From positions 24,842 through 88,841 of the forward strand of contig NZ_QWJJ01000019.1 of NCBI RefSeq assembly GCF_003575965.1: DNA of 64,000 bases, given 5' to 3'. Within the stretch, counting starts at the first letter, position 1, and each line of letters opens with the position of its first letter. Origin of the DNA: Pseudooceanicola sediminis. Its GTDB lineage: Bacteria; Pseudomonadota; Alphaproteobacteria; Rhodobacterales; Rhodobacteraceae. The notes below the pieces were generated by a model, which was not told where the DNA came from, did not search any database, and saw only the letters and a list, made by a program, of their open reading frames with translations. The translations under genes were made by a program, and so were the position numbers. This document shows positions 17,959 to 37,727 of the stretch, in pieces.

Positions 17959-17984
17959 GACGCCGGCCGAGAAAAAGCATTACA
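17959..17984 (-). promoter_or_regulatory. ECF-type promoter, TGTAATG-N15-CGTC
   Basis: Minus-strand -35 TGTAATG (17984-17978) and -10 CGTC (17962-17959) with 15 bases between them, about 34 bases before the Cys-rich peptide ATG. One of six identical-spacing sites in the window; see findings. Confidence 0.65.
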
Positions 17985-18083
17985 GGACAAGGAACCGTCG
18001 GCGCGACGGACGGCGGGGACTGCCCGGACAAAGCGCGACATCGGATCCTGCTTGACCTGTCTTTTTTTGTCGCGGACACGTCA

Positions 18084-18701
18084 TTACCCAATCACCAGCT
18101 GCAGATCGACGCCCAACTCAAATGGCGGGATGTCAAGATTGCGTGGCGCCGGCCCTCGTCGGATTCTTCCCGAAGTGTCGTAATGAGACCCGTGGCAAGG
18201 GCAGAACCAGCCGCCGAAATCGCCTACCGCCGCACCGTCCTGACCCAGAGGTATGCATCCGAGATGCGTGCAGACGCCGATCACCACAAGCCATTCACCG
18301 GTTGCGTCCGCGGCCCGGTTCTCATCCAGTGCGGACTCTTGGGCTTCGTGGTTCGGGTTCTCGCGGCTGGTATCGACCGGATCGACAAGATCGTCGAGAG
18401 AAACGGTCTGCGCCGCAGCGATCGCTTGGGGCGAGCGGCGCCAGATGAAAACCGGACGTCCCTGCCATTTGACGGTAATGCGTTGACCCTCTTCCACCCC
18501 GGTGAGATCGACCCGGACCGTGGACGCACCGACGATATCGGCCGAGGGATTCATGGAGTTGATCAGTGGCCAGACCGCGGCGCCGGTTGCAACGGCTCCG
18601 GCGCTCGCGGTCGCATAGTAGAGGAAGTCGCGTCGTGCCGATGGGGCATAGGCTTGATGAAGTAAGACATCGGCGCTCGAAGGAGCATTTTGCTCTGTCA
18701 T
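18084..18701 (-). CDS. petA: Rieske iron-sulfur protein (cytochrome bc1 subunit type)
   Basis: A 205-residue Rieske protein with the two cluster motifs CTHLGC (near residue 148) and CPCHGSHYD (near 167), which hold a [2Fe-2S] cluster with two Cys and two His. The N terminus [19 protein letters not shown] is a twin-arginine-like, uncleaved membrane anchor as in PetA. Length is normal for PetA. No petB or petC is adjacent, so this is a stand-alone copy, transcribed after the CBS-BON gene. It could substitute for or modify the chromosomal bc1 Rieske subunit; that is inference. Confidence 0.9.
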
Positions 18702-18741
18702 ATCACGCTCCTGACCCTGAATTGCCGATCAATGGCCCGCA

Positions 18742-19434
18742 TCAGATGCCCCAGGCGTAGTCGGGAATACGGCCCAGGTGCACCGATATCTCGCCAAGAC
18801 CGTCAATCGCTTCCAGCGCGACCTTGGCCGCGTCTTCCTCGTCGTTGGAATTGACGATACCCCAGACGTCGACGCGATTATCAGCGACGACGACGTTCAG
18901 GTGAACGGGGTTCAGTCCCGGCACCTGCGCAAGCGCACCCAGGACTATGTCGCGCCTTTCGTCCTCGCCGGCCTCCGGCCGGACATGCACGATCGGTTGC
19001 GCCGCAAGTGCCTGCAACAGATTTGCACGGCTCACGATCCCGACGAGCTTGCCGTCTTCGACCACGGGCACCCGCTTGATGTGTTTTTTTTCAAGCAGCC
19101 GGGCGATCTCCCCAGCGGGCGTGTCAGGTCCCACGGTCGTCAGTTGCGTGGTCATGATATCCCTGAGCAGCTGGCCGTGGTCCTTGACGAAATTCCTCGC
19201 GTCTGTTTGGGTTTCGGAGAAAAGAGATAACCACCAAGATCGGGTCTCGTCTTTTGCGCCCTCAACGCGGCGCATCAGATCGCCCTCGCTCACGATGCCC
19301 ACGAGGCCGTCGGCATCGTCCAGAACCGGAATGGCGCTGATACGGTGTTGCGACATCAGTTCCGCTGCCTTCTTTACGGTCATGCCTGGCGTTCCGGTAA
19401 CAACGGTTTTCGTCATGATATCCGATGCATTCAT
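18742..19434 (-). CDS. Tandem CBS domain plus BON domain protein
   Basis: A 230-residue cytoplasmic protein. It begins MNASDIMTKTVVT, the usual start of a CBS pair; two CBS domains run to about residue 145 (second one with TTVGPDTPAGEIARLL and VVEDGKLVGIVSRANL). The remainder is a BON-like domain with NRVDVWGIV. CBS pairs bind adenine nucleotides and sense energy state. The frame extends some 110 codons upstream but that part lacks domain character and contains the ECF-type promoter. The Rieske gene follows 40 bases later. Target of the sensing is unknown. Confidence 0.85.
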   Translation of the reverse strand: MNASDIMTKTVVTGTPGMTVKKAAELMSQHRISAIPVLDDADGLVGIVSEGDLMRRVEGAKDETRSWWLSLFSETQTDARNFVKDHGQLLRDIMTTQLTTVGPDTPAGEIARLLEKKHIKRVPVVEDGKLVGIVSRANLLQALAAQPIVHVRPEAGEDERRDIVLGALAQVPGLNPVHLNVVVADNRVDVWGIVNSNDEEDAAKVALEAIDGLGEISVHLGRIPDYAWGI

Positions 19435-19510
19435 GTCTGGTTCGCCTTCCGTGCGCTGCTTCGCGGCCTCAACACAGGCAAGCGCCTGCATCGGCGGCCA
19501 CTGATTAAGA

Positions 19511-19536
19511 GACGCGCCAGGCTTCGAAACATTACA
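19511..19536 (-). promoter_or_regulatory. ECF-type promoter, TGTAATG-N15-CGTC
   Basis: Minus-strand TGTAATG at 19536-19530 and CGTC at 19514-19511, spacer 15, about 77 bases before the ATG of the CBS-BON gene. Same spacing as the other five sites. Confidence 0.65.
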
Positions 19537-19627
19537 GGTGAGAGCGTCTCCAGGAGCGCAACGGTCCGCCGACGCGTGCCCAAGACCGCGCGAACCTAGT
19601 CTCCTCGGCTCGGTTCCAAGCGAAGCA

Positions 19628-20110
19628 TCAACCGGGATTGCGCCCCTGATCAGCAATCCGGCACGCCAAACGGCGCATGTAGAAAAGCACGAGCATGGGA
19701 ACAAACACCCATTGCAGGATCGGGGAAAGACCGGTGCCGAGGACCGGAAGCGTCGGCATGTCGGCATCATAGGCCCAGCGGCCCGTCACCTCGGTGTGCA
19801 GGTATTCGAGACCTATGGTCGCCATAAGTCCAACCGCAAAAAACACAGCCGGGGCAGCCACCTTTTTGTTTGCAATCCAATTGCGGCCTTCGCCCACAAG
19901 GGCGGCACACCAGAAAGCCGCCAACGCGATGGCAATATCACCCAGTGTCGCCTTCAGGCAGATGAGAGTACCGGTGAAGTGTTCGGTCTGGCCGAGGCTC
20001 GCAAATAACGGTGCCTGCAAGAGTTCCCACGCGAAATGTCCAAGGAACGACAGGAACACAAGATCGACCTCTGGCGGCGGGCGACAGGAACGCGCAACGG
20101 TTATGGGCAT
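19628..20110 (-). CDS. Uncharacterised membrane protein
   Basis: A 160-residue protein with about four hydrophobic segments and recognisable but unassigned motifs: GHFAWELLQAPLF near residue 24, GRWAYDADMPTLP near 110 and GTGLSPILQWVF near 124. The Trp-Tyr and Pro-rich loops suggest a defined family, but I cannot name it. It is divergent from the secreted protein gene at 20.3 kb and separated from the CBS gene by about 190 bases. An inner-membrane location is inferred; function unknown. Confidence 0.6.
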   Translation of the reverse strand: MPITVARSCRPPPEVDLVFLSFLGHFAWELLQAPLFASLGQTEHFTGTLICLKATLGDIAIALAAFWCAALVGEGRNWIANKKVAAPAVFFAVGLMATIGLEYLHTEVTGRWAYDADMPTLPVLGTGLSPILQWVFVPMLVLFYMRRLACRIADQGRNPG

Positions 20111-20315
20111 CTGAAACCTGATATCTTCGTGGGAGAACGGGGGCTATGACCCTCCGGCTAATACCCTGAAACCGATACTGTGAACAGCAAACCAGAAATG
20201 GTCACGAGCGGCGTGCTGCCCCAGATTGCTGGTAGTTCAGGATTGACTCAAATCAAAGTCACGCTTTGGCAATATGTCAAAATCTGACTGCGGGAATCGC
20301 GAAGGGCATGGACGC

Positions 20316-20684
20316 ATGTTCAGTACTATGCAGAGAACCTGGGGCGTGAGGATTCGAGCGGTGACAGCCGCCGTAGCCGTCATGGCGCTTCTCGCCTCTG
20401 CATTTGCAGCGCCGCTGGAAATCGATCACCGTGTCCGGTCCACGCAAGCTGCCGCTGTTTCCGTCGCCAACGTCGGCAGTGACGATGGCGGTCGCGTTCA
20501 GCTTGCTTCGAGCACAGAATGCCATGCCGGCCACAGTTGCATGCCCGTGATCATGCCCAGACTCGAAGTACAGGGTTTGGAGCATTTCGATAGTCCGCTG
20601 GGACTTCCCCGCGTGCGGGACTACCTCGCATTAGGGGTTCGGTACCGGCTCTTCCACCCGCCCCGAATCCTTTCACAGGTCTGA
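20316..20684 (+). CDS. Secreted small protein with CHxGxxC motif
   Basis: A 122-residue protein with a signal peptide (VRIRAVTAAVAVMALLASAFA) and a mature part with ECHAGHSC near residue 72 and a C-terminal YRLFHPPR. The protein at 51.2 kb has the same plan: signal peptide, GHCHPGLDC, then a tail with SYDPPPPR. This suggests a family of small periplasmic proteins with a Cys/His metal or thiol site. It ends 53 bases before the CorE-like sigma gene, so it may be co-transcribed. An ATG 14 codons upstream is possible. Function unknown. Confidence 0.6.
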   Translation: MFSTMQRTWGVRIRAVTAAVAVMALLASAFAAPLEIDHRVRSTQAAAVSVANVGSDDGGRVQLASSTECHAGHSCMPVIMPRLEVQGLEHFDSPLGLPRVRDYLALGVRYRLFHPPRILSQV

Positions 20685-20737
20685 TCGTCGGCACCGGCTC
20701 TTCGGTGCTGCTCAACGCCATGTGAAAGGAGCAAGCC

Positions 20738-21358
20738 ATGTACGCTGAACGAATACACACATCAACCGAGGTCTCTCGCCACGAAGCCGAGGCCAGACTC
20801 ATCGAGTGCCGCAACAAGTTTTTGGGATTTCTTCGGAAACGACTGAGAAATCCCCAAGATGCCGAGGATATTTTTCAGGAATTCTGCGTCAAGGTGCTGC
20901 GCAATCACGCCACCATCAAGAATGGCGAACGACTGGACGCCTGGTTGGCGATCACACTGAGGCATACCCTGACCGATCACTACCGGCGCCAGGCCACGCG
21001 AAGTCAGGCGACCGAAGCCTTTGCGAGCGAGGCAAAGATACTGAGTCCGGAGACCGAGCCATCGTCCGGGGATGTCGATGAGCCGGCGTGCAGTTGCATT
21101 CACGCGGCAATGCAGGACCTGCAACCTGCTCATGCAGAGTTGCTGACGCGCCTCGATCTGCGCGAAGAATCACGCGACAGGGTCGCAACCGACCTTGCAG
21201 TCACTCAGAATGCCTTGCGGGTGCGTGTCCATCGCGCGAGGCTCGCGTTGAAGAAGCGCATAGCCGAGATCTGCCCGACTTGCGGTGAAGGTCGGTTCAT
21301 GCAGTGCGACTGCGATCATTCCCAAGAAATCCACAATCGGACGGAAATGGCGTTCTGA
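20738..21358 (+). CDS. ECF sigma factor, CorE-like (CxC linker and Cys-rich tail)
   Basis: A 206-residue ECF sigma factor. Sigma2 spans about 20-90 (FLGFLRKRL, DAEDIFQEFC, DAWLAITLRHTLTDHYRR), sigma4 about 125-172 with a helix-turn-helix ending VHRARLALKKRI. It has a CSC at 118-120 in the linker and Cys at 179, 182, 190 and 192 in the tail. This CxC linker plus Cys-rich tail is the layout of the Myxococcus CorE group, whose members sense copper or cadmium/zinc directly without an anti-sigma factor. GGAGC lies upstream of the ATG. A second member is at 34.9-35.5 kb. No anti-sigma gene is adjacent. Confidence 0.88.
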   Translation: MYAERIHTSTEVSRHEAEARLIECRNKFLGFLRKRLRNPQDAEDIFQEFCVKVLRNHATIKNGERLDAWLAITLRHTLTDHYRRQATRSQATEAFASEAKILSPETEPSSGDVDEPACSCIHAAMQDLQPAHAELLTRLDLREESRDRVATDLAVTQNALRVRVHRARLALKKRIAEICPTCGEGRFMQCDCDHSQEIHNRTEMAF

Positions 21359-21580
21359 ATGTCGGGAATTTCCAAAATGCGCTTCTTCCAATTGACGATC
21401 GCCTCTATTGCGAAGGCTCCGACGATTGGGCGAAGCGAGGTCAGTCAAGAGCTTGATCCGTTTAGTCGTATCATCAGGCGGCGCGGGACCCCCGGTCGGA
21501 ATCCGCAGGTACGTGTCGCGCGTTCGATGGCCGCGCAGGAACGGCTCGGTCGGGATTCGATCCGGGGAGTGATCCGATGA
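21359..21580 (+). other. Doubtful ORF joining the sigma gene and the sigma4-only gene
   Basis: A 73-codon frame whose ATG directly follows the sigma stop (TGAATG) and whose TGA overlaps the next ATG (ATGA). The geometry is operon-like, but the residue pattern looks non-native and no family is recognisable. The minus strand of the same DNA has RDTYLRI, similar to the L,D-transpeptidase at 1.7 kb, so this may be the remnant of an older gene. Confidence 0.25.
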
Positions 21581-21879
21581 AATCAGTCGGCAATCCCGAT
21601 CCGATTGGCGATGATGAGCTAGAAGCGCTGATCTGCGACTGCATTGAAATACTGTTTCAGACACTTCCCGCGGATCAGGCAAGCATTGTTCGTGCTATCG
21701 ATCTGGAGGGCGCGTCACCCCAGTCTGTTGCCGACACTCTGGGGCTGGGCCTGGGCGATGTCGCCACGGTTCTTGCGTTAGGGCGGCAGGGCCTGAAGGC
21801 CACGTTTGGCGAGATGTCCAGGATCTGCCCCGTGCACGGCCTGGCTGGCTGCGAGTGCCATCGCATAGGCGACGACTGA
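21577..21879 (+). CDS. Sigma2-less CorE-like protein (CxC, sigma4, Cys-rich tail)
   Basis: A 100-residue protein that aligns with the C-terminal half of the CorE-like sigma factor just upstream: CDC at 20-22 in place of CSC, a sigma4-like helix-turn-helix around 33-78, and a tail with CPVHGLAGCECH (Cys 84, 92, 94). It has no sigma2 region and so cannot act as a classical sigma factor alone. It may bind -35 DNA or core RNA polymerase together with a partner, compete with the full sigma, or serve as a metal sensor. It lies in the same direction, 218 bases after the sigma gene. Confidence 0.75.
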   Translation: MKSVGNPDPIGDDELEALICDCIEILFQTLPADQASIVRAIDLEGASPQSVADTLGLGLGDVATVLALGRQGLKATFGEMSRICPVHGLAGCECHRIGDD

Positions 21880-21897
21880 ATCTGGTCCCCTGTTGGC

Positions 21898-21923
21898 TGT
21901 AACGCCGGGGCGCCGAATGCGTC
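21898..21923 (+). promoter_or_regulatory. ECF-type promoter, TGTAACG-N15-CGTC
   Basis: TGTAACG at 21898-21904 and CGTC at 21920-21923 with a 15-base spacer, about 40 bases before the ATG of the Cys-rich peptide and 19 bases after the sigma4-only gene. Confidence 0.65.
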
Positions 21924-21963
21924 CTTACAATACAAGGATAAGTCACTGACGAAGGGTTTTACT

Positions 21964-22149
21964 ATGAGCAAGACAGATGCGCCATCCAAGACGCAAGGCA
22001 GCTGCTGCTGCGGGTCGTCAACCGACAGCTCGAAAAACACCGCTTCCGAGACCAGGGAGGCGGCGGCGGCAGGTAGGCTGAGCAACGAGGCAAGAGAAAC
22101 CGCAACCGAGCGGTCCAACGTCTGCTGCGGCGGTCACGGGTCGCAATGA
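21964..22149 (+). CDS. Small cysteine-rich protein (CCCG/CCGG motifs)
   Basis: A 61-residue hydrophilic peptide with QGSCCCGSS at about residues 11-19 and a C-terminal NVCCGGHGS, joined by an Ala/Glu/Arg-rich linker likely to be helical. It is the counterpart of the peptide at 17.8 kb, which carries its CCCG cluster at the other end. Probable cytoplasmic metal- or thiol-binding buffer (inference). It is the first gene behind a strict ECF-type promoter and is followed by a small membrane protein, the patatin lipase and a cytochrome. Confidence 0.7.
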   Translation: MSKTDAPSKTQGSCCCGSSTDSSKNTASETREAAAAGRLSNEARETATERSNVCCGGHGSQ

Positions 22150-22192
22150 ATTCGCCACTTCCACGGGTTCAAAAAATCAAAGGAGACCAACC

Positions 22193-22339
22193 ATGCCATT
22201 CATCATGTTCCTTTTCGCGAGCGGCCTGACCGTCGTTCTGATGCTCTACGGCTTTCGGAATCGCGGTGAAATTCTGGCTTTGGCAAGCGTCAGATACGCC
22301 TTCGGAAAACCCGCTGCGCGGTTGCGGAAGCAATTCTGA
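22193..22339 (+). CDS. Small single-pass membrane protein, 48 residues
   Basis: A short gene starting at the ATG 22193 behind a strong AAAGGAGACC ribosome site. The product begins MPFIMFLFASGLTVVLMLYG, a single hydrophobic helix, followed by a basic cytoplasmic tail ending RLRKQF. It is unrecognised by family. The position between the Cys-rich peptide and the patatin gene, and the good ribosome site, support it as real. Confidence 0.6.
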   Translation: MPFIMFLFASGLTVVLMLYGFRNRGEILALASVRYAFGKPAARLRKQF

Positions 22340-22500
22340 TGCGCCGGGGACTGCCACCGCTCTTGCGGCATTTCCGATGACACCGGGGATGCTAAGGGCG
22401 CGGAGCATCCGCCCCACGCCTGGGTGGACAGGGCGAATTGCGGGCAGGCCTATCTGGCAGGGATTTACCCATCGCCTTGAGCGCTGTGGAGCGAACCGCG

Positions 22501-23912: not shown

Positions 23913-23991
23913 TCCGGAGCGTGTGCCGACCGTCTCCGAAGCCGCGCGTGCGCCGGTCGTCCTCAATGCGATTTCGGAACGCGGAGGGTGA

Positions 23992-24162
23992 ATGTCAGGT
24001 CGCGGGACGGATTTTGGCAGCACGTTCCCACCGCCGCGGTTCAATGGCAAAGGGCTTGATCAGCCCGGGCGTGATGTCGGTACGGGTCCCGGCGCGATGA
24101 TCGCGCTCTTTGCGGCCTTCGGCATCGCGGCTGTTTTTGTTTGCGAGCGGATGTATCTTTAA
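23992..24162 (+). CDS. Small membrane protein, 56 residues
   Basis: A short gene at ATG 23992 preceded by GGAGGGTGA. The N-terminal 33 residues are polar and Gly/Pro-rich, then one hydrophobic helix (IALFAAFGIAAVFVC). The TGA of a 28-codon frame (23905-23991, starting inside the cytochrome gene) touches its ATG, which may couple translation. Not recognised by family; probable single-pass membrane protein. Confidence 0.5.
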   Translation: MSGRGTDFGSTFPPPRFNGKGLDQPGRDVGTGPGAMIALFAAFGIAAVFVCERMYL

Positions 24163-24239
24163 CTCTGGACCGCACCACTGGGCCAAGCCTGTCCCTGCCG
24201 CAACGGCACGGTCCAACTGCAAAGGCGAGGATTTTCAGG

Positions 24240-24926
24240 ATGTGTCTTTCCCAGACCGTCAGTTTCGCGGCAAGCGTCTTTCTTGTTGGTGGCGGTGCTT
24301 TTGCGGTTACAAAGGCGTGGCAAATCAACAGGCGCTACCTGCCGGTTGCCCTCATGCCGCTATTTGCGGGCCTGCAACAGTTCATGGAAGGCAACGTATG
24401 GTGGGGCGTCAATACCGGCAATCCCGGCGCAACGCTGATGGGCGCTTTGGGATTCATCTTTTTCACCTGGTTCATGTGGCCGTTCTGGATTCCGCTTTCC
24501 AGCTACGTGCTGGAGCCGAACGGCAGCCGTCGGCGCCCCTATATGCTGGCGATGACTTTGGCGGGGCTGGCCTTCGGATTGGCTCTCTATGTCCCGCATC
24601 TGACCAATCCGGAGTGGATTCAGGTAACTGTCAATCAGGATTCACTGGCCTATGAGGGCACCATGATCCTGGACTATCTGATGCCACGCGAATTGACTTA
24701 TGTGATCTACCTGATCCTGATCATTGTGCCGCCGCTGATTTCGACCTATCTGCACATGCGCTGGTTCGCCCTGACCATCGTGGCGGTGGTCGTCGTCGAT
24801 ATCCTGTTTCTTCGCTACGCCTATATCTCGTTCTTCTGTCTGCTTGCGGGGCTTGGCACGCTACACCTCATCTACATCATCGCCCGCAACAAGTGCGCGC
24901 GAGAATGTCCTATGTTGTTTGCCTAG
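24240..24926 (+). CDS. DUF6629-like integral membrane protein
   Basis: A 228-residue protein with about seven hydrophobic segments. It begins MCLSQTVSFAASVFLVGGGA and contains LPVALMPLFAGLQQFMEG near residue 42, the conserved start and first loop of the DUF6629 family. The frame extends 33 codons upstream without membrane character; the ATG at 24240 fits the family start. Role unknown. It is the last gene of the plus-strand run that begins with the Cys-rich peptide and is convergent with fabI. Confidence 0.78.
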   Translation: MCLSQTVSFAASVFLVGGGAFAVTKAWQINRRYLPVALMPLFAGLQQFMEGNVWWGVNTGNPGATLMGALGFIFFTWFMWPFWIPLSSYVLEPNGSRRRPYMLAMTLAGLAFGLALYVPHLTNPEWIQVTVNQDSLAYEGTMILDYLMPRELTYVIYLILIIVPPLISTYLHMRWFALTIVAVVVVDILFLRYAYISFFCLLAGLGTLHLIYIIARNKCARECPMLFA

Positions 24927-25149: not shown

Positions 25150-25962
25150 TCAGTGAAAGATCATGCCATCGACGTGAAACCCGGCATCGACATGCAGGAT
25201 CTCGCCGGTGATGGCGGTTGTATGGTCGCTGACCAGCAGCAGGGCGGCGCGTCCCACTTCGTCGGCGGTCACGGTGCGTCGCAGCGGTGATTTGGCCTCG
25301 GTCTCGCGGATCAGTTCGTCGAAATGCTCGATGCCGGATGCCGCGCGGGTCTTGATCGCCCCGGCGGAGATCGCATTGACGCGAATACCCTTTGGCCCCA
25401 GTTCATGCGCCAGATAACGCACGGAAGCCTCGAGCGCGGCCTTGACCGGACCCATCAAGTTGTAGTGATCCACGACCTTCTCGGCCCCGAGAAAACTTAA
25501 CGTGGTGAGGCTGCCGCCCCGCGCCATGAGGGGCTCAGCCAACTTGGCCATGCGGATGAAGGAATGGCAGGATATTTGCATTGCTTGCGCAAAGCCGGTC
25601 GCCGAACTGTCCACCAGCCGTCCGTGCAGGTCCGCGGCCGGGGCCCAGGCGATGGCATGCACCAGAAAATCGAGTCTCCCCCAAGTAGAGGTGATGCGCT
25701 CGAAGACCGCCTCGAGCTGGCCGTCGCGGGAGACATCGCAAGGCGCCAGGATTGGGGCGTCGATCGACTGTGCCAATGGCTCCACATGCGGGCGTGCCTT
25801 GTCGTTGAGATAGGTCACGGCGAGCTCCGCGCCCGCGGCGTGGCAATTGCGCGCCGCCGCCCAAGCCAGACTGTGTTCGTTGGCAATACCGATCACGAGG
25901 CCCTTCTTGCCGTTCATGTCGAGTGACCAGTTGGTGCCGGGGGCATGGGTTGCATTTGTCAT
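25150..25962 (-). CDS. fabI: Enoyl-[acyl-carrier-protein] reductase
   Basis: A 270-residue SDR-family enoyl-ACP reductase (NADH). The nucleotide site KGLVIGIANEHSLAWAAA near residue 18 and the active-site YNLMGPVK (Tyr-x6-Lys) near 161 are diagnostic of FabI; length is normal. It completes each round of fatty-acid elongation in the cytoplasm and is the triclosan target. Here it overlaps pta by four bases (ATGA), so it is an accessory copy in an acetyl-phosphate operon. The longer upstream frame lies in pta. Confidence 0.9.
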   Translation of the reverse strand: MTNATHAPGTNWSLDMNGKKGLVIGIANEHSLAWAAARNCHAAGAELAVTYLNDKARPHVEPLAQSIDAPILAPCDVSRDGQLEAVFERITSTWGRLDFLVHAIAWAPAADLHGRLVDSSATGFAQAMQISCHSFIRMAKLAEPLMARGGSLTTLSFLGAEKVVDHYNLMGPVKAALEASVRYLAHELGPKGIRVNAISAGAIKTRAASGIEHFDELIRETEAKSPLRRTVTADEVGRAALLLVSDHTTAITGEILHVDAGFHVDGMIFH

Positions 25963-26990
25963 GCCGCCGCCTCCTCGGGGGGCGCTGTCACGCCAAGCGC
26001 GCAGCAAGCGTGTTCGGGTTGCGGGGCCGCCGCTGCGCTGCTCTCTACCGGTGAGGTTGGTGCTTGCTGCAATATGCCCTGGCGAAACATCAGCGCCGCC
26101 ACCGCCAGCGAGGCCATCCGCGCCGGGGCCGAATCGGCACGCGAGGTCAGAACGACGGGGGCCGACAGACCCACAACAACGCCCGCAGCGACCGCTCCAG
26201 CAAGATATTCCAGCGCCTTGGCGAGGATGTTGCCAGACACAAGATCGGGGACCAGCAGGATATCCGCCCGACCCGCCACATCCGACAGGATGCCTTTCAC
26301 ATTGGCGGCGCTTTTGGAGATAGCGTTGTCAAACGCCAGCGGCCCGTCGATCTGCGCGCCGGTAATCTGACCGCGCCGCGCCATCAGCGTCAAACAAGCA
26401 GCGTCGAGGGTCGAGGGAATGCCGCCCGTCACCGTCTCTACCGCCGACAGGACCGCAACGCGCGGCTCGGCCGCGCCGAGCGTGTGAAACAGATCAACGG
26501 CATTCTGACAAATCTCACCTTTCGCCGCGAGATCGGGCGCGATGTTGATGGCCGCATCGGTGATGCCGATCAACCGGTCATGTCCAGGAATGTCGACCAG
26601 AAAGGTGTGGCTGCACCGTCGCCCCGCGAGGCGCAGGCCGGCGGCACTGTCCAGAACGGCGCGCATCAGGATATCGGTATGAACATTGCCTTTCATGACG
26701 AGATCGGCGTCGCCGCTGTGCACCATCAGAACCGCAATGGCTGCGGCTTCGGCATCGGATCCCGCCTCGATGATCCAGTCGGAATGCGGGGTCCAATCCA
26801 TTGCCGTGCAAATCCGCAGCGTCGCCGCCCGGTCGCCGATCAGTCGCGGTTCGGCGAGACCTGCAAGGGCGGCATCGCGCAGGGTTTCCAGAACCACCGG
26901 CTGCGCGGCATCGACCACGGCGACTCGCACCGCGCCCTGGCCGCTGGCTCTGTCGATCAGATGTTGCAGGCTTTCCGGCTGTGCACTCAT
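25959..26990 (-). CDS. pta: Phosphate acetyl/butyryltransferase
   Basis: A 343-residue protein of the PTA/PTB family in the short form (no N-terminal P-loop domain). It contains ADLVMKGNVHTDILMRAVLD near residue 97, GITDAAINIAPDL near 138 and the C-terminal LLVPDLVSGNILAKALEYLAG near 244, typical of the phosphotransacylase fold. It interconverts acetyl-phosphate and acetyl-CoA (or a butyryl equivalent). The tail is Cys/Ala-rich. It starts three bases after ackA and overlaps fabI. Acyl specificity is not determined by sequence; related bacterial genes are sometimes labelled as bifunctional enoyl-CoA hydratase. Confidence 0.85.
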   Translation of the reverse strand: MSAQPESLQHLIDRASGQGAVRVAVVDAAQPVVLETLRDAALAGLAEPRLIGDRAATLRICTAMDWTPHSDWIIEAGSDAEAAAIAVLMVHSGDADLVMKGNVHTDILMRAVLDSAAGLRLAGRRCSHTFLVDIPGHDRLIGITDAAINIAPDLAAKGEICQNAVDLFHTLGAAEPRVAVLSAVETVTGGIPSTLDAACLTLMARRGQITGAQIDGPLAFDNAISKSAANVKGILSDVAGRADILLVPDLVSGNILAKALEYLAGAVAAGVVVGLSAPVVLTSRADSAPARMASLAVAALMFRQGILQQAPTSPVESSAAAAPQPEHACCALGVTAPPEEAAA

Positions 26991-26993
26991 GTC

Positions 26994-28202
26994 CTAGCCC
27001 TCGGTTCCGGTTCGTTTGAACGCGCGATGGGTGGAGAGTTGCGCGGCGACATGCCGGGCAATCATCTTTTCTTCGTCCGTCGCGCGGACCTCGACGATGG
27101 CCCGCGCTCCCGGCTTTGAGATCACGGTGTGGCCGGACTTGTTGGCACCGTGTTCCACGTCGATCCCCAGATAGCCAAGCCCGGAACAGATGCGCCCGCG
27201 TATCTCGGCCGAATTCTCACCGATGCCGCCGGTAAACACGACACGGGTCACGCCGCCGAGTGCACCGGTCAGACGCGCAAGGTGCAGCCGGGCCTGATAG
27301 CAGAAATAGTCGACCGCCAACTGCGCTTGCGGCACGGAGCTTTCCAGAAGATCGCGCATGTTCCGGCTGCAACCGGAAATCCCCAGAAGCCCGCTCTGGG
27401 TGTAGAGCAGGGTTGCGACCTCGTCGGCACCCAGGCCCCTTTCCTGCATCAGGAAGAGAACGATACCCGGATCCAGATCACCACTGCGCGTGCCCATGGG
27501 CAGGCCGGCGATTGTGGAGAAACCCATGCTGGTTTCTACCGGTTTCCCGTCCCGGATCGCGACCATCGACGCACCGTTGCCCAGATGGGCGATGACGATG
27601 CGTTCGGCACCGATTTCGACGCCGTCGCGGTGAAGTGCGTCCATGATGTATTCGTAGGAGAGGCCGTGAAAGCCATAGCGCCGGATGCCCTTTTCAGCCC
27701 AGGCGCGGGGCAGCGCGGTCATGCGAGCCAGAGGGGGCAGATCGTGATGAAACGCGGTGTCGAAACAGGCCACCTGCGGCAGGTCCGGCCGGGTGGCCAG
27801 AACCGCGTCGATTCCGGCCAGATTGGGCGGGATGTGCAGCGGCGCAAGCGCCTTCAGTCGGCGCAAACGCGCGACAATGGCGGGTGTGACGCGCTTAGGG
27901 CAGTCGCAGTCCGGTCCGCCATGCACGACGCGGTGGCCGACGGCCACCAGGTCCAGTGCGCCAGGCAGGCCGGCGACAGCACGGAGCAGCCGGCTTAGCG
28001 CTGCGTCATGGCTGACGAATTGACCCGGTTCGTCGATCACCACGGTCCGGCGCGCATCGCTAAGCTGGAAATGCGCATTGGGAAGCCCGATCCGGTCGAT
28101 CGCCCCCGACCACAACCGCCTGGGCTGGCCGGACGCGGTGAACAGGGCGAATTTCAGCGAGGAAGACCCCGAATTGAGGGTCAGAATGACCTGTTCAGGC
28201 AT
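26994..28202 (-). CDS. ackA: Acetate kinase
   Basis: A 402-residue acetokinase. LTLNSGSSSLKF near the N terminus, GHRVVHGG near 85, RYGFHGLSYEYI near 170 and VVFTGGIGENSAEIR near 320 are all family signatures. It makes ATP from acetyl-phosphate or the reverse. The start ATG at 28202 overlaps the small DUF2933-like gene; the longer frame upstream is not coding. With pta and the phosphoketolase-like enzyme it completes an acetyl-phosphate pathway. Confidence 0.93.
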   Translation of the reverse strand: MPEQVILTLNSGSSSLKFALFTASGQPRRLWSGAIDRIGLPNAHFQLSDARRTVVIDEPGQFVSHDAALSRLLRAVAGLPGALDLVAVGHRVVHGGPDCDCPKRVTPAIVARLRRLKALAPLHIPPNLAGIDAVLATRPDLPQVACFDTAFHHDLPPLARMTALPRAWAEKGIRRYGFHGLSYEYIMDALHRDGVEIGAERIVIAHLGNGASMVAIRDGKPVETSMGFSTIAGLPMGTRSGDLDPGIVLFLMQERGLGADEVATLLYTQSGLLGISGCSRNMRDLLESSVPQAQLAVDYFCYQARLHLARLTGALGGVTRVVFTGGIGENSAEIRGRICSGLGYLGIDVEHGANKSGHTVISKPGARAIVEVRATDEEKMIARHVAAQLSTHRAFKRTGTEG

Positions 28203-28377
28203 CGGTGTGGCCCTTTGACGGCTGGTTGTTCTTTGGACTGGCCAGTCCGTCCCTTTTCGTGGCGTGATCACTGGTGTGATTCTGTCCGCCCTTCTTGCCG
28301 TGGCTGTGTCCAAAAAGGTGCATGGCAACCATTCCGCCGCCCAGAAGCAGCAGCCAGTTTTCTGCTATCCATTGCAT
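28195..28377 (-). CDS. Small DUF2933-like membrane protein
   Basis: A 60-residue protein. One hydrophobic helix (NWLLLLGGGMVAMHLFG) is followed by GHSHGKKGG and a polar tail. It resembles the membrane and His/Gly-rich part of the DUF2933 proteins at 8.1 and 49.7 kb but is shorter. It overlaps the ackA start by eight bases and lies 18 bases after the DUF3141 gene, so it is an operon member. Metal binding by the His-Gly segment is inference. Confidence 0.6.
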   Translation of the reverse strand: MQWIAENWLLLLGGGMVAMHLFGHSHGKKGGQNHTSDHATKRDGLASPKNNQPSKGHTDA

Positions 28378-28395
28378 TTGTCGTCTCCTCTCCGG

Positions 28396-30150
28396 TCACA
28401 CCGGCAAATGGGCGTCGTTCTCGGGGTCGGATGTATCGCCGCCGTAGAGCGTTCTGAACGCGCGCTCGGAACTGGCGTCCCGGGCAATGCGGGCGCGCTC
28501 GATGGCATCGCCGATGGCCGCGATGGCCGCCCTCTCACGCCCGATCATCGGATCGTCCGAACCGAGCGGTTCGCGTGTTGCGGCGATAGCGTCTGCCGTC
28601 TGCCGGACCAGACGCATCCAGGGATTGAACCGTTCGGAAAACACAAGGCGGCTGGTGCGCATCGGATGCATCCATTTCAGCATCTCGGCACTGGCTGGGG
28701 TCGTCATCAGCCGCACCCAGGGACTCACGAATGTGGCATAGAATGCCTCGTTGATTTCCGAAACGCGCTCGACAGTCTCGAAGGTCTTCTCAGGAACATG
28801 CGGATCAAGGTCGCTCACCTTGCGCGGCTCGAACCGCACCTTGTACTCCGGCGCGTGGCAATCAGGATCGCCCGATGGGTTGTCGATCTTCATCTCGTAG
28901 AGACCGGGTTTGAGCTTTTCGATCTTGCCCAGGCTTTCCAAAATGGCGCGATGCTCAAGGCGCGCCACCGACGCCGAAACGAAGATGCCGAGGTGCCCGA
29001 CATGATCATTGGTCATGTAGACGATCCGCTGCTCCGCTGCCTTGAGATCCGCTGTGTCCTTGTAGACCGCCGGGATCCACCCCAGGGCCTGCGCGGGCGG
29101 CGTGATATTGTCGCCGTAGGAGGCGAAAACGATCATCGGGCTCTTGATCTTGCGCAGATCGGCCACACAGTGGTCTCCGATCGGCATCTCGCCGCTTTCC
29201 AGCTTGTTTCCGATGAACAGGTTCCGGGTGATTTCCATGATTTCCGCGCCGCTGAGGGTATAGAATCCGTTCCACCACCGCTCGAACTCCAGAAAGCGGT
29301 CGCGTTCGGTATCCACGTTGGTCAGCAGGTTGGCGTATTTCTCCCAGATCGCCTTTTCAGGTTTCAGGGTTTCGAAATTCTGCGCCAGCCAGGCACCGTC
29401 AAAGCGTCCGTCGCCCAGATCGGCCGTCAAGTGCGCCAGCCAGGCACCGCCCAGCAAGCCGCCGGTGACCCGCATCGGGTTCACGCCTTCCTCTCCGGCC
29501 CAGTAGGACAGCGGCGAGCCGTTCAGCACGACCGGCCCGGCCAGTCCTTCGCAATGCGCCGCGAGCAGCGTGACCGCCCAACCGGCCTGACAATTGCCAT
29601 AGAGGACCGGGGCGCCGCCATCGTGGCGCCATGCGACCTCTTCGACGAAGCGACGCAACGCGAGCAGCACATCCTCAAGCGTCTGGTCGGGGGCGGGTTC
29701 GGGGAAGAAGATGACGAAATAGACCGGGTGCCCCTCGGCCATGGCCATGCCGACCTCGCTATCGCGCTTGAACCCGCCGATGCCGGGACCGTGTCCTGCA
29801 CGGGGGTCCACCACGATGACAGGCGGTTTATTGGCATCGACGCAATCGTCCCAGCAATTTCCATCGACTTCAGTGATCTTGAGCAATGCATAATTGGCCG
29901 GGCGCTCAAACTGGCGCGCATCCAGGAGCGTTTCGTACTTGAAATTCAGCAGCGGCGGCATCCCCGCGCGGTCGTGCGCGATCATGTTGTCAGCGCGTTC
30001 GCGCAGTGTATCCAGAAACAGCACCGTGCGTTCCCAGAGATCGCGGCCGTAGGCGACGGGATCGGAGGGCGGAACATTGTTGGCAACTGGATGGGTGGGA
30101 GCTTCCGTGTTCGCGGCGACGAGAGGCTCAATCGAGGTTACAGTGTTCAT
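28396..30150 (-). CDS. DUF3141 alpha/beta-hydrolase, PHA synthase-like
   Basis: A 584-residue protein of the DUF3141 family. The nucleophile elbow YGNCQAGWA near residue 180 is the GxCxG box of PHA synthases (PhaC), and other PhaC-like pieces surround it. The family is often found with phosphotransacetylase, acetate kinase and fabI, as here. The product could polymerise or hydrolyse hydroxyacyl-CoA-derived chains, but the activity is not established from sequence. MNTVTS at 30150 is chosen because it overlaps the DUF5676 stop by four bases. Confidence 0.85.
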   Translation of the reverse strand: MNTVTSIEPLVAANTEAPTHPVANNVPPSDPVAYGRDLWERTVLFLDTLRERADNMIAHDRAGMPPLLNFKYETLLDARQFERPANYALLKITEVDGNCWDDCVDANKPPVIVVDPRAGHGPGIGGFKRDSEVGMAMAEGHPVYFVIFFPEPAPDQTLEDVLLALRRFVEEVAWRHDGGAPVLYGNCQAGWAVTLLAAHCEGLAGPVVLNGSPLSYWAGEEGVNPMRVTGGLLGGAWLAHLTADLGDGRFDGAWLAQNFETLKPEKAIWEKYANLLTNVDTERDRFLEFERWWNGFYTLSGAEIMEITRNLFIGNKLESGEMPIGDHCVADLRKIKSPMIVFASYGDNITPPAQALGWIPAVYKDTADLKAAEQRIVYMTNDHVGHLGIFVSASVARLEHRAILESLGKIEKLKPGLYEMKIDNPSGDPDCHAPEYKVRFEPRKVSDLDPHVPEKTFETVERVSEINEAFYATFVSPWVRLMTTPASAEMLKWMHPMRTSRLVFSERFNPWMRLVRQTADAIAATREPLGSDDPMIGRERAAIAAIGDAIERARIARDASSERAFRTLYGGDTSDPENDAHLPV

Positions 30151-30416
30151 GCCGGGGCACTCCGTGCGAAAAAGTTCCATGCGGGGACAAAGATCACGGC
30201 GACGTACCAGCCGTAGGCAAAGCTTTCGATGAGACCGAGAAGGGCGCTTGACCAACTGATCCAGCTCACACCGGGCAGCAATGGCAGCCACGCCTGATAC
30301 ATGGTGGCTCCGAGAAACAGCAGTCCGAACAGAACGCAGAGCGCGAAGCTCACCGCCAACAGGACGCCAAGCGCCATGGCAACAGGATAGATGCGGATAG
30401 GTCTTGTTTCTGACAT
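30147..30416 (-). CDS. DUF5676 small membrane protein
   Basis: An 89-residue protein with two to three membrane segments, ending with GLIESFAYGWYVAVIFVP. It is a paralogue of the DUF5676-like protein at 17.2 kb. It is the first gene of the DUF3141-ackA-pta-fabI operon, about 65 bases behind a strict ECF-type promoter. The start is the first ATG of the conserved region. Function unknown. Confidence 0.75.
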   Translation of the reverse strand: MSETRPIRIYPVAMALGVLLAVSFALCVLFGLLFLGATMYQAWLPLLPGVSWISWSSALLGLIESFAYGWYVAVIFVPAWNFFARSAPA

Positions 30417-30487
30417 GCAGATTACTCCTGAGATCGCAATGTCGCGCAAGCACGACAGGCCCCGCGTTTCCACGGGTTCGATATCAA

Positions 30488-30513
30488 GACGTCGCCAGTG
30501 GGCATCCGTTACA
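30488..30513 (-). promoter_or_regulatory. ECF-type promoter, TGTAACG-N15-CGTC
   Basis: Minus-strand TGTAACG (30513-30507) and CGTC (30491-30488), spacer 15. The bases after the -10 (TTGATATCGAA) match those of the cfa promoter at 33183-33208 (CTGATATCGAA), a longer identity than the motif alone. Confidence 0.7.
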
Positions 30514-30587
30514 GGATCAGTACAAGAAACTGTTGACGGAACTGTCGATGCAGACCATTTTCGGCTGCCTGAGAACAAGGTGTGCAG

Positions 30588-31742
30588 TTATTGGCCTTGC
30601 CTTGCGCGCGCCAGAACCAAGAGACCCGCAATTGCCGAGAGGCTGGACCCGGCCAGGATTGACAGCCGCGCGCTAGCGGCCAGCGCCGGCGCCTCGAACG
30701 CAAGCGCAGTGACGAACAGTCCCATTGTGAACCCGACGCCTGCGAGCAGAGCGGCCCCATAGATGTGCCTGAAGCTTACTTTTGGCGGCAGTACGCCGAT
30801 ATTCAGTCTGACGGCTACCCAGGTTGCGCCGAGCACGCCTATCTGCTTGCCTAGGAACAGGCCAAGAAAGACGCCAAGCGACACGCCACCCGTTACGTTC
30901 CGAAGTGTCTCTGCCTCGACCGACACACCGGCGTTGAAGAAGCCGAATGCCGGCACGATCAGCAGACCTGCCCAAGGATGCAACAACCGCTTTGTGATGC
31001 GCAGGGGGGAATGTCTATGGCTGCCTTTTGCGCCTTTGGGGATCACCGCTGCGATAAGGACCCCAGCAAGGGCGGCTTCGAGGCCGGATTGGAACAGGGC
31101 TAACCAAAGCAATACGCTCAGGACAGTCAGCGGCAGCGGACGAGCCAGTTCAAGCCGGTTCAGGCAGATCATGACCCCGAATGTGCCAATGGCCAGGATC
31201 ATCGGGAAGAACTGGATTTCCTCACTGTAGAAGACGGCGATGATCGCGACCGCCCCGAGGTCGTCGAAGATCGCCAGTGCCATCAGGAATGCCCTGAGTC
31301 CGACGGGGACGCGATGCCCGAGCAAGGACAGCAACGCCAGGGCAAGGGCAATGTCGGTGGCCATGGGGATCGCCCAACCACGCAGCGCTTCGCCATCGGG
31401 TGCCGCAAGCGCGACGTAGATCAGTGCCGGAACGGCCATGCCGCCAAAAGCGGCAATCGCGGGCACCGCGGCCCGCTGAAGGCTCGACAGATGCCCCTCG
31501 AGAAGCTCATGCTTGATTTCGACCCCGACAAGAACGAAGAAAATCGTCATCAGGCCCTGGTTGATCCAGACGATCAGCGGTTCCCTCATCTGGAAAGGCA
31601 GAAGGCCAACCCGGATCGGCGCATGGTGAATCGCCGCGTACAAATCCGCCAACGGAGAATTTGCCGCGATCAAAGCAGAAATGATGGCGCTCAGGATAAG
31701 GACTCCCGAAATCCTGTCTTGGATCAGCGGCTTAATGGTCAC
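30588..31742 (-). CDS. nhaA: Na+/H+ antiporter NhaA
   Basis: A 384-residue antiporter of the NhaA family with about 12 membrane segments. The ion-binding Asp pair is in FDDLGAVAIIA near residue 163, a further Asp in MATDIALALAL near 132, and the loop FFVLVGVEIKHELLEGHL near 68 is typical. It exchanges sodium for protons across the inner membrane. The start is GTG. No operon partner is apparent; the next gene is in the same direction about 110 bases upstream (cfa). Confidence 0.93.
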   Translation of the reverse strand: MTIKPLIQDRISGVLILSAIISALIAANSPLADLYAAIHHAPIRVGLLPFQMREPLIVWINQGLMTIFFVLVGVEIKHELLEGHLSSLQRAAVPAIAAFGGMAVPALIYVALAAPDGEALRGWAIPMATDIALALALLSLLGHRVPVGLRAFLMALAIFDDLGAVAIIAVFYSEEIQFFPMILAIGTFGVMICLNRLELARPLPLTVLSVLLWLALFQSGLEAALAGVLIAAVIPKGAKGSHRHSPLRITKRLLHPWAGLLIVPAFGFFNAGVSVEAETLRNVTGGVSLGVFLGLFLGKQIGVLGATWVAVRLNIGVLPPKVSFRHIYGAALLAGVGFTMGLFVTALAFEAPALAASARLSILAGSSLSAIAGLLVLARARQGQ

Positions 31743-31850
31743 TTCGTATGCAATCTGTCCGTGAATGTTTCGAACGGCGTCCGTTGCAACATCTCGTGAA
31801 CCAAAATGCAGCTTTGGCCAAAGGTCGCCAGTGTCGGCCGTTTCTGCTTG

Positions 31851-33146
31851 TCACAGTCGGCCTTCAGCTTTGGCGATGTAGTCGCGGGTCAATGGGACCG
31901 TGGTCTGGCGCTTCGCCAACTGGAACTGGAACACCACCAAACCGGTATGGCGGAACGCGGCTTCGCAGACCGCAAGATAGAACTCCCACATCCGGCAGAA
32001 CCTGTCGTCATGAAGCGCGGCGAGCCTCGCACGATTGGCCAGAAACCGGCGCCGCCAGGCGCGCAGGGTTTCGGCGTAGTGCAGGCGCAAAACCTCGACA
32101 TCCGTGACAATCAGGCCGCTCTTTTCGATGGCCGGAAGCACTTCGGACATGGCCGGGACGTAGCCGCCCGGAAATATGTACCTATTGATCCATGCCCCCG
32201 GCGCGCCGGGCGGACCGCTGGTGCCGATCGTATGAATCAGCGCGACCCCGTCGTCGCTCAACCGGCGTGCGACGCAGTCGAAATAGGTCTGGTAGTGCGG
32301 CGTACCGACATGCTCGAACATGCCGACCGACACGATCCGATCATATTTCCGATTTTCATTCCGGTAATCCCGCAGAAGAAATCGCACCTTGTCCGCCAGG
32401 CCGGCGGTCAGGGTTTCCTTTTGCGCGAATTTCAACTGTTCTGCGGACAGCGTGAGACCCGCGACCGAAACGTCATGTTTGCGCGCCAGAAACCGGGCCA
32501 GCCCGCCCCAGCCCGAGCCGATATCGAGAACCTGTTGACCCGGCTGCAACAGCAGCTTGGCCGCAATGTGCCGTTTCTTTCGGAGCTGCGCCTGTTCCAG
32601 CGTATCGTCCGCCGCTGCGAAATAGGCGCAGGAATACTGCCGGTCCGCATCCAGAAACGAGGTATACAACTCATCCGTCAGATCGTAATGATGCGCCGCG
32701 TTGCGCGCGGCCCGTCCCTTTGGGTTGAACAAGGTAAACGGCCGGGTGTTTCGGCGGATCGCCAGCCATATCCGGCGCACAGGCGAGCTCTTCGCATCGC
32801 CAAGGTTGCGCAGCACCAGCTCCAGAAATGTGTAGATGTCGCCGTCATCGATGCGAAGACTGCCGTTCATATAGGCCTCTCCGACCGCCAGATCGGGGTG
32901 AAATGCAATCCGGCGCACGGTGCTTGGTCTGGTGATCGTGGCGGCAATTTGCGGGTTGCCCTTGCCGAACCGACGTACGGTTCCGTCGGGAAAGCTCAGC
33001 GTCAGCGAGCCGTTCTTGATCGACCGGTTCAGAAAGCGACTTACCAAGTGCGTCCAGAGATTGAACCGACCCCGCATTGACATTGCCGGAGGTGCAGGAT
33101 GAACCCTTGTCGCGGTGAGCCGCTCGATATCAGTGAAGTCGTTCAC
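31851..33146 (-). CDS. cfa: Cyclopropane-fatty-acyl-phospholipid synthase
   Basis: A 431-residue SAM-dependent enzyme of the CFA synthase family. The SAM motif QQVLDIGSGWGGLARF is near residue 203, followed by GLTLSAEQLKFAQ and MFEHVG, and the GGYVPAMSEV segment near 335. It adds a methylene bridge to unsaturated acyl chains of membrane phospholipids, which stabilises membranes against acid, solvent and oxidative stress. Start is GTG. A strict ECF-type promoter lies 37 bases upstream, so it belongs to the proposed sigma regulon. Confidence 0.9.
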   Translation of the reverse strand: MNDFTDIERLTATRVHPAPPAMSMRGRFNLWTHLVSRFLNRSIKNGSLTLSFPDGTVRRFGKGNPQIAATITRPSTVRRIAFHPDLAVGEAYMNGSLRIDDGDIYTFLELVLRNLGDAKSSPVRRIWLAIRRNTRPFTLFNPKGRAARNAAHHYDLTDELYTSFLDADRQYSCAYFAAADDTLEQAQLRKKRHIAAKLLLQPGQQVLDIGSGWGGLARFLARKHDVSVAGLTLSAEQLKFAQKETLTAGLADKVRFLLRDYRNENRKYDRIVSVGMFEHVGTPHYQTYFDCVARRLSDDGVALIHTIGTSGPPGAPGAWINRYIFPGGYVPAMSEVLPAIEKSGLIVTDVEVLRLHYAETLRAWRRRFLANRARLAALHDDRFCRMWEFYLAVCEAAFRHTGLVVFQFQLAKRQTTVPLTRDYIAKAEGRL

Positions 33147-33182
33147 GAATGGGCCTCCTTCGCTTAGCGGTTTCGATATCAG

Positions 33183-33208
33183 GACGTTGACCGTTGAAGA
33201 TCGTTACA
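33183..33208 (-). promoter_or_regulatory. ECF-type promoter for cfa, TGTAACG-N15-CGTC
   Basis: Minus-strand TGTAACG (33208-33202), 15 bases, CGTC (33186-33183), followed by CTGATATCGAAA. The GTG start of cfa is 37 bases downstream of the -10. Confidence 0.7.
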
Positions 33209-33474
33209 CATTCGAGACAGCCGGTCCGGGCCGGCAATCGGCGCAACTTCATTCGCATGTGAGCGAGTCTGACCATCCCAAAGGCCGTCAGAGGGGCCTG
33301 CGGCCGCAGTCGAGGCCTTCGCTCAGAAACTCGGTGTCGCACTTGAAATGTGAATCCAGCATCTCCCGTATGGCCAATAGACTAGAAAGAATCCGGAACA
33401 GCTTTCCGTGCTGCGGAGTGACAGAGCGGAAGGGCCCGACCGTATAGTCAAAAATGTCGACAGCATGAAGAACG

Positions 33475-33500
33475 TGTAACGGAACGCCGAGGCGGACGTC
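33475..33500 (+). promoter_or_regulatory. ECF-type promoter, TGTAACG-N15-CGTC
   Basis: TGTAACG at 33475-33481 and CGTC at 33497-33500, spacer 15, about 40 bases before the ATG at 33541. It drives the sigma4-like gene, possibly giving positive feedback or negative feedback on the regulon. Confidence 0.65.
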
Positions 33501-37710: not shown

Positions 37711-37727
37711 TCCAGATCTCCTTTCGT

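Follow-up and report, generated by a model that had tools for sequence, protein, structure and literature searches.

A cluster of promoter-like sites beside two CorE-like sigma factor genes

We have analyzed a stretch of 64,000 nucleotides (nt) from Pseudooceanicola sediminis (contig NZ_QWJJ01000019.1, positions 24,842 to 88,841; the whole stretch is called the window here). It contains two genes for extracytoplasmic function (ECF) sigma factors of the CorE-like type, sig1 and sig2, and six copies of one promoter-like motif, TGTAAYG-N15-CGTC, all of them exact. With distances counted from the final C of CGTC up to the start codon, site 1 (TGTAATG-N15-CGTC, 17959..17984, minus strand) lies 33 nt ahead of the ATG of Cys-rich peptide A and site 2 (19511..19536, minus) 76 nt ahead of the ATG of a CBS-BON protein. 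Site 3 (21898..21923, plus) is found 40 nt ahead of Cys-rich peptide B, site 4 (30488..30513, minus) 71 nt ahead of the ATG of a DUF5676-like protein, site 5 (33183..33208, minus) 36 nt ahead of the GTG start of a cyclopropane-fatty-acid (CFA) synthase gene, cfa, and site 6 (33475..33500, plus) 40 nt ahead of a gene coding for a sigma4 domain only, s4b. A preliminary description of this DNA had placed the six sites 34-77 bases before start codons and in the right direction. The pattern search located all of them again with the same coordinates and strands, the distances agree, and each site is on the strand of the gene behind it. According to our own gene list all six are intergenic, in a region (17169-37731) of which 15% is non-coding. 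With up to one mismatch there were 8 sites in the window, compared with a mean of 1.3 and a maximum of 4 in shuffled sequences; one of the inexact sites is found 63 nt before the response regulator gene of a two-component pair (38531-40737). The motif is not palindromic. A repeat element was ruled out by eye, the flanks and spacers being different at the six sites.

The products of sig1 (20738..21358, plus; Sigma70_r2 4.5e-12) and sig2 (34897..35517, minus; Sigma70_r2 5.4e-11) are of the ECF type, with only the sigma2 and sigma4 domains, region 4 scoring below the cut-off in both. In a 2022 review of non-canonical ECF factors, CorE and CorE2 are marked by a CxC in the sigma2-sigma4 linker and by a Cys-rich C-terminus (PMC8999054). 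Both marks are present here (in sig1 the tail is of the form CxxC..CxC). An alignment, A1, was made with 19 of the 22 CorE-like genes that we kept from the family (sig1, sig2 and 17 relatives). The linker cysteines C118 and C120 and the tail cysteines C179, C182, C190 and C192 were invariant in all 19, and the profile built from it matched, at E<=1e-5, 15 solved sequences, all of them sigma factors. By the sequence features tested, sig1 and sig2 belong with the CorE-like ECF sigmas (ECF44/ECF238). No anti-sigma family was recognised among the Pfam and NCBIfam matches of the window neighbours scanned, among which some small genes remain unnamed. In Pseudorhizobium a gene annotated as NrsF family is located about 5 kb from the CorE-like gene.

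The genes behind the sites are varied. The translations of Cys-rich peptide A (17755..17925, minus; GCCG..GGCCCG) and Cys-rich peptide B (21964..22149, plus) match no NCBIfam family, and B no Pfam family either. The CBS-BON gene (18742..19434, minus) has a clear CBS match (9e-34) and a BON score of 23 bits on a longer frame, below the cut-off of 27. It likely shares its transcript with the gene of a Rieske iron-sulfur protein (18084..18701, minus; Rieske 2.9e-11, UCR_Fe-S_N 3.2e-19). Site 4 heads a run on the minus strand with a DUF5676-like two-helix membrane protein (30147..30416), a DUF3141 protein (28396..30216; 4.2e-206, scored on the longer open frame 28396-30453) and three genes named by family matches, an acetate/propionate kinase (ackA, 26994..28328), a phosphate acyltransferase of the pta/ptb family (25959..26990) and the enoyl-ACP reductase fabI (25150..26007). 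The cfa gene (31851..33146, minus) matches CMAS at 1.1e-89. These labels had been given in the preliminary description and stand, that of the sigma4-like gene included, with the reservation that BON and the sigma4 match score below the Pfam cut-offs. The DUF5676 label is based on the similarity of the protein to the product of 17169-17480, and this reference itself falls just under the cut-off. NCBIfam offered no family for it.

Frequency of the motif in the genome

The whole genome (4,440,901 bases in 54 contigs) has 7 exact sites, and 6 of them are those of the window, within one stretch of 15.5 kilobases (kb). The scan-corrected probability of such clustering by chance is about 4e-12. The seventh, on contig C28 (307649), lies within an apparent long reading frame of the opposite strand; it is probably a chance match for this reason and was rejected as a member of the regulon. 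As controls, the backwards pattern was found 4 times genome-wide, the motif with a spacer of 14 also 4 times (none on C16) and with a spacer of 16 never. Other one-mismatch matches in the genome were not accepted as members, since those with a trailing T were 13, including the six known sites, against 39 for the backwards control.

The motif accompanies CorE-like genes in the family

The motif and sig1 were looked for in an evenly drawn sample of 295 genomes of this family (sig1 with a threshold of E 1e-18 and at most 10 candidates scored per genome). At least 11 had a sig1 match, and 22 of the 23 genes matched carried the CorE marks and were retained; the remaining one, L085, had neither CxC nor Cys-rich tail. 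The exact sites in these 11 genomes numbered 7, 10, 8, 3, 2, 7, 7, 10, 5, 5 and 4. By hand tally, five or more sites were present in 8 of the 11, compared with 1 of the other 284 (Fisher p ~1e-12). By hand count too, among these 284 there was one genome with 5 sites (G211) and four with 4, and 52 of the 68 exact sites of the 11 genomes were within about 25 kb of a CorE-like gene. In genomes with a single CorE-like gene (G093, G156 and, after the exclusion of L085, G121) the sites adjoin that gene. A relative from the same genus, G192, had no sig1 match at 1e-12 and no exact site. In our first set of genomes a site was found 17-20 nt before the start of five CorE-like genes, which points to autoregulation. 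The preliminary description had proposed, as an inference, that the CorE-like sigma factors read the motif. The comparison supports this, the abundance of the motif following the CorE-like genes over the 295 genomes. The check proposed there, whether the motif is any commoner before starts than chance would give, was made in comparative form and did not refute the reading. The sites of two genomes without a sig1 match at 1e-12 were set aside: the five in G211, spread across two contigs, and a pair in G197, the frames behind the pair not being the usual targets.

Spacer, consensus and targets in a larger set of loci

When one genome per species was scanned with the alignment, 79 CorE-like loci were obtained, from Jannaschia, Sulfitobacter, Roseovarius, Pelagivirga, Paracoccus, Hoeflea, Stappia, Oricola, Thalassospira and Maricaulis among others. 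Over these loci and positions 10-40 kb of the window (1.41 Mb in total, sites identical over +/-10 bases counted once) there were 117 distinct sites with a spacer of 15, from 0 to 4 with every other spacer between 8 and 24, and 6 with the backwards pattern. Put in another way, CGTC followed at +15 in 117 of 199 TGTAAYG words. The wider consensus is approximately tcTGTAAYG..N..rCGTCT. Thirteen of the 79 loci had no exact site, and 12 of these had a one-mismatch site, by eye before a usual target in 11. Counting the genes instead, 62 of 91 distinct CorE-like open reading frames had a same-strand site (up to one mismatch) within 300 nt downstream. By type of tail, these were 25 of 33 with CGxCC..DC.C, 19 of 23 with CGxCC..GF.DC.C, 9 of 13 with CxTCP and 4 of 6 without a recognised tail.

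Clustering of the proteins behind the 117 sites gave 29 Cys-rich peptides (GCCG...GCCC type), 28 sigma4-only proteins (a cluster of 23, four similar to the s4a product described below, and s4b of the window), 13 DUF5676-like proteins, 7 CFA synthases and 5 complete CorE-like sigmas. There were also 4 copies of a 48-residue membrane peptide and, by eye, 3 multicopper-oxidase-like proteins, and we found CopA-like ATPases and single cases such as Rieske and cytochrome c, the rest being unassigned or doubtful frames. Only the recurring families, and not the distances, are evidence here, because the score by which starts were chosen always finds one.

We have also looked for orthologs of the window targets in genomes with a close relative of sig1. 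Of 8 matches for the DUF5676-like gene, 7 had an exact site upstream at a distance of 71-85 nt (71 in the window). The CBS-BON site (76 nt) was kept in 2 of 4, at 74 nt and exact in a metagenome-assembled Sulfitobacter and at 75 nt with one mismatch in Jannaschia. That of cfa was kept in 1 of 2, in Pelagivirga at precisely the 36 nt of the window, and that of s4b (40 nt) in 2 of 3, at 38 nt with one mismatch in two Sulfitobacter loci. The single ortholog of peptide B had a site, as did 3 of 9 orthologs of s4a. The letters of the spacers differed among orthologs, so that it is the motif that is conserved and not the whole region. The arrangement of the genes is also recurrent. The site is followed by the run DUF5676-DUF3141-ackA-pta-fabI-P-ATPase in Jannaschia, Sulfitobacter and Pelagivirga. 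Two Hoeflea genomes have another site, which heads Rieske-MBL-deoA-prs-P-ATPase, and in Roseovarius lutimaris a site leads towards MBL-P-ATPase. In six related genomes altogether, a counterpart of the P-ATPase of the window was in a same-strand run behind an exact site.

This ATPase (10946..13294, minus) is of the P1B type. A CPC motif and two CPMHP heavy-metal domains can be read in its translation, features that Cu/Ag exporters would be expected to show. It is located downstream of site 1 in the window, within a run of minus-strand genes whose stop and start codons overlap, and is likely cotranscribed by read-through from that site.

Other families and plasmids

In 385 genomes of the class, searched at a threshold of 1e-25, there were 6 with a sig1 match, that of P. 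sediminis included. Four genomes of other families (G392, G394, G442 and G534) gave ten matches, nine with the linker CxC. Eight of the nine had an exact site within about 520 nt (hand count; seven behind the gene and one divergent) and the ninth, in G392, had one 1.7 kb behind. The matches without CxC (L275 in G442 and L271, the single match of G301) had no exact site within about 520 nt, and eleven genomes of the class without a sig1 match had 0-2 sites each. The sites of these other families precede peptides of the form CCGHG..CCCGS and, by eye, CFA synthase and phasin-like proteins; of 17 examined, 10 had behind them a start with a word resembling a ribosome site and 7 had none.

Similar examples were found on plasmids. 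In a conjugative plasmid of Indioceanicola there are three exact sites, and a Cys-rich peptide follows one of them. The plasmids of Phenylobacterium and Pseudorhizobium each carry a single exact site. In Croceicoccus a CorE-like gene is preceded, at 21 nt, by a one-mismatch site, and there is also one exact site without a gene behind. Even in a plasmid of a member of the Nitrospirota (Manganitrophus), a tandem TGTAACC-N15-CGTC, with one mismatch, is located 181 and 237 nt behind a CorE-like gene. It precedes an unannotated frame of 96 residues, by eye like the start of a P-ATPase, and the annotated P-ATPase is 2.2 kb further. Copper genes are annotated beside relatives of sig1. In PLSDB we found relatives of sig1 on 31 plasmids, 15 of them predicted to be conjugative (CxC and tail were read in eight of the genes only). 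The module looks mobile.

A study of the 102-kb plasmid of D. shibae names a 'sigma 70 factor' as possible regulator (PMC9426580). This factor is very probably the CorE-like sigma that we found on that plasmid (L206:11983-13027, pDSHI06), with a sigma4-only gene behind it. The pair of D. shibae strains with and without this plasmid (PMC9426580) would be a ready laboratory system, although the plasmid stretch that we read has only one inexact site.

Sigma4-only relatives of the CorE-like sigmas

Directly behind sig1 there is a gene, s4a (21577..21879, plus), coding for a CxC, a sigma4 domain and a Cys-rich tail, with no sigma2. The gene s4b (33541..33861, plus), behind site 6, codes for CxC and sigma4. 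The Pfam matches are weak (Sigma70_r4 and Sigma70_r4_2, respectively). A model of the s4a product aligns to region 4 of solved sigma factors, s4b matches both sigma4-only profiles weakly (~2.5e-5), and tblastn found no match of s4b in plasmids. Of 69 sigma4-only relatives, 57 were directly behind a CorE-like gene and 56 had the CxC. The sigma4-like gene of the preliminary description is a member of a family of CorE relatives without sigma2, a point that had gone unnoticed there, like the Fnr-type box described below. The motif VRxHRxR, invariant in the 19 CorE-like sigmas, was by eye kept in none of 19 sigma4-only proteins; most of the family retains the CxC and the sigma4 fold, without the DNA-contact motif of the CorE-like sigma4.

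The s4a and s4b products, made beside or inside the regulon, would damp or tune the sigma factor. A bolder proposal, which we offer tentatively and consider somewhat less probable than its negation, is that the CxC-sigma4 proteins without sigma2 form a new class of metal-sensing regulators. They would be truncated relatives of the sensor sigma, often expressed from the same type of promoter, that bind the same metal and titrate or damp the complete factor. Together with an Fnr-type box (see below) and the paralogues on one promoter code, they could make up a self-contained circuit, mobile on plasmids, in which metal and oxygen signals are combined and which turns itself off. In any case these partners raise the question of what turns off a sigma factor that carries its own sensor.

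It is unlikely, in our estimate about as much as one would say of a long shot, that these proteins are not dampers and represent the sigma4 half of a split sigma that needs a sigma2 partner. There is a precedent in SigO/RsoA of B. subtilis, likewise with a protein that has sigma4 and no sigma2 (PMC8103513), and the alignment of the s4a model to sigma4 fits it. However, the loss of VRxHRxR in all 19 speaks against it, and among the window proteins scanned only sig1 and sig2 match sigma region 2 (no genome-wide search for sigma2-only proteins was made). Unlike SigO/RsoA, the sigma4-only gene is here mostly behind a complete sigma and mostly with CxC, and no sigma2-only partner was seen in the window.

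An Fnr-type box ahead of the sig1 operon

The only TTGAYN4RTCAA of the window, TTGACTCAAATCAA (20243..20256, plus), is ahead of the sig1 operon. The Fnr consensus is of the type TTGAT-N4-ATCAA. By itself the box is weak, with 0.16 expected in the window and 15 of 100 shuffles containing at least one. However, 8 of 10 sig1-type loci (all except L110 and L116) had a box of this form at -476 to -518 from the sig1-like start, which suggests that the sig1 operon is controlled by a regulator of the Fnr/Crp family. Such a regulator, acting at 20243-20256, would set the level of sig1, e.g., in response to oxygen or nitric oxide. Between the box and sig1 is the gene of a small secreted-looking protein with a CHAGHSC motif in its translation (20316..20684, plus), without an NCBIfam family, that has tblastn relatives in 9 of the 10 sig1-type sources searched. 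In Pseudorhizobium flavum (L203:10791-11674) an exact site precedes the gene of a Crp/Fnr-family regulator beside a CorE-like gene, a second link between the two types of regulator.

What reads the motif

We interpret TGTAAY(G)-N15-CGTC as a -35/-10 promoter read by CorE-like ECF sigmas, in this case by sig1 and/or sig2, and give this reading a probability of roughly 0.9. The comparison between genomes strongly supports that the motif is a sigma promoter. The suggestion of an ECF regulon in the preliminary description is supported by the fixed spacer, the agreement of strands and the recurring targets. Probably the gene set of the window is activated by the adjacent sigma factors in response to a metal, which is most likely copper. 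We infer copper only because of the CPC P-ATPase target and the copper genes beside the relatives.

The two factors with sigma2, linker CxC, sigma4 and Cys-rich tail are encoded inside the cluster. By analogy with CorE of Myxococcus, the metal, most likely copper, would bind to the CxC and the tail and the sigma would then work without an anti-sigma. The active factor would start transcription at the sites, a step that the comparison strongly supports. The predicted targets are the Cys-rich peptides (presumed metal buffers), CBS-BON/Rieske, DUF5676-DUF3141-ackA-pta-fabI and cfa, with the CPC-type P-ATPase reached by the likely read-through from site 1. Together, these targets would serve to export and buffer the metal, change the membrane lipids and provide an acetyl-phosphate energy route.

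Several observations weigh against this reading, or against its details. Neither s4a, sig1 nor sig2 has a site of its own in the window. The class of 'other' tails, to which the sig1 type belongs, had a downstream site in only 5 of 16 genes, and in all six sig1-type genomes searched sig1 is accompanied by one or more further relatives; with so few adjoining sites and these further relatives, sig1 cannot be tied to the motif separately. One locus, L116, had no site even with one mismatch, and the cluster of pDSHI06 in D. shibae had a single one-mismatch site in the 24.6 kb read. Retention at the orthologs was incomplete, the CBS-BON site being absent in two Hoeflea and those of cfa and s4b in Jannaschia, and peptide A had no ortholog in the genomes compared. 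The AAC in the -35, which had been put forward as typical of ECF promoters, is found in 4 of the 6 window sites and in only 47 of the 117 of the larger set, the other 70 having AAT. Moreover, many of the loci are related and the counts not independent, and the 11 genomes with CorE-like genes are a lower bound, because no more than 10 candidates were scored in each genome.

Some of these points would fit true ECF promoters served by a sigma factor encoded elsewhere, with the CorE-like genes as mere passengers in a metal island. The -35 and -10 do resemble other ECF promoters; that of SigX in B. subtilis is quoted as TGTAAC / CGWC (PMC12153292), which makes the motif one of an ordinary ECF type, and the lack of own sites at sig1 and sig2 would be in agreement. 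We hold this to be very improbable, since the site-rich genomes are those with CorE-like genes, the sites adjoin the sole CorE-like gene of G093, G156 and G121, five CorE-like genes have a site ahead of them, and the pattern recurs in other families and, with one mismatch, in the Nitrospirota plasmid. Still less credit can be given to an operator of another regulator, e.g., a response regulator of the Cus/Cop type or a protein of the MerR type. The two-component pair at 38531-40737 is nearby and has the one-mismatch site before its response regulator, but the motif lacks palindromic symmetry, is oriented like the gene behind it at all six places and is almost absent with other spacers, and on spacer specificity and strand we rejected this possibility. 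Chance or a repeat artefact is practically discarded: single exact matches are frequent (at least one in 176 of the 295 family genomes), but the clustering, the spacer, backwards and genome controls and the conservation across genera with diverged spacers refute it.

Relation to known systems

The system of the window is best compared with CorE and CorE2 of Myxococcus xanthus (former ECF44, now ECF238). According to PMC8103513, no other members of this group have been studied experimentally. The two systems have in common the order sigma2-CxC-sigma4-Cys-rich tail and targets among metal genes (PMC3107203; PMC8999054), the CorE regulon being given as cuoB, copA, copB and an HMA-domain gene. CorE promoters are described with AAC in the -35, a G in the -10 and a distance of 16-18 residues between them (PMC3107203), compared with 17 here. 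The features tested support that the window system works like the CorE-like ECF regulons and belongs with them. Unlike in CorE, there are here paralogues with several tail signatures beside one motif, sigma4-only partner genes, targets that include Cys-rich peptides, CFA synthase and DUF5676/DUF3141/ackA/pta, and an Fnr-type box ahead of sig1. It is the tail that determines the metal in M. xanthus (PMC8999054; PMC9023288), and as the tails of the paralogues differ beside one motif, different metal inputs may feed one promoter set. OrbS of Burkholderia cenocepacia is likewise an ECF sigma with an on-board metal sensor of C-terminal cysteines, but it is inhibited by Fe(II), regulates a siderophore and has another spacing of the Cys (PMC9023288). 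The situation also appears different from that of the CnrH-type ECF sigmas with their membrane anti-sigma, no anti-sigma family having been recognised among the neighbours scanned.

In the literature searched we have not found a description of the motif or of sigma4-only CorE relatives (an earlier publication of the motif is possible), nor of the breadth of the code, the target set or the Fnr link. A promoter code shared by many genera would make the targets of such sigmas predictable from sequence, and it provides about a hundred sites for testing promoter choice by metal-loaded sigma factors.

Neighbouring genes

The run behind site 1 (17925-3718, minus) is likely a long operon with several overlapping stop and start codons, coding for the Cys-rich peptide, DUF5676-like, MBL-RNase-like, thymidine-phosphorylase-like and PRPP-synthetase-like proteins, the CPC P-ATPase, a phosphoketolase and more. 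Phosphoketolase and ackA/pta would form the acetyl-phosphate route. In the stretches fetched from six relatives there was no counterpart of the phosphoketolase with at least 40% identity, which weakens it as a core member of the regulon.

The gene sig2 is the last of a same-strand run (35550-37731, minus), which also codes for an additional Lgt (prolipoprotein diacylglyceryl transferase), for a VTT membrane protein and for what we take to be a DUF302-like protein; the site search of the window found no motif ahead of this run. Finally, the window has a DUF6629 membrane protein (24141-24926, plus), and in Jannaschia, R. lutimaris and a Sulfitobacter plasmid a DUF6629 gene is likewise close to CorE-like genes.

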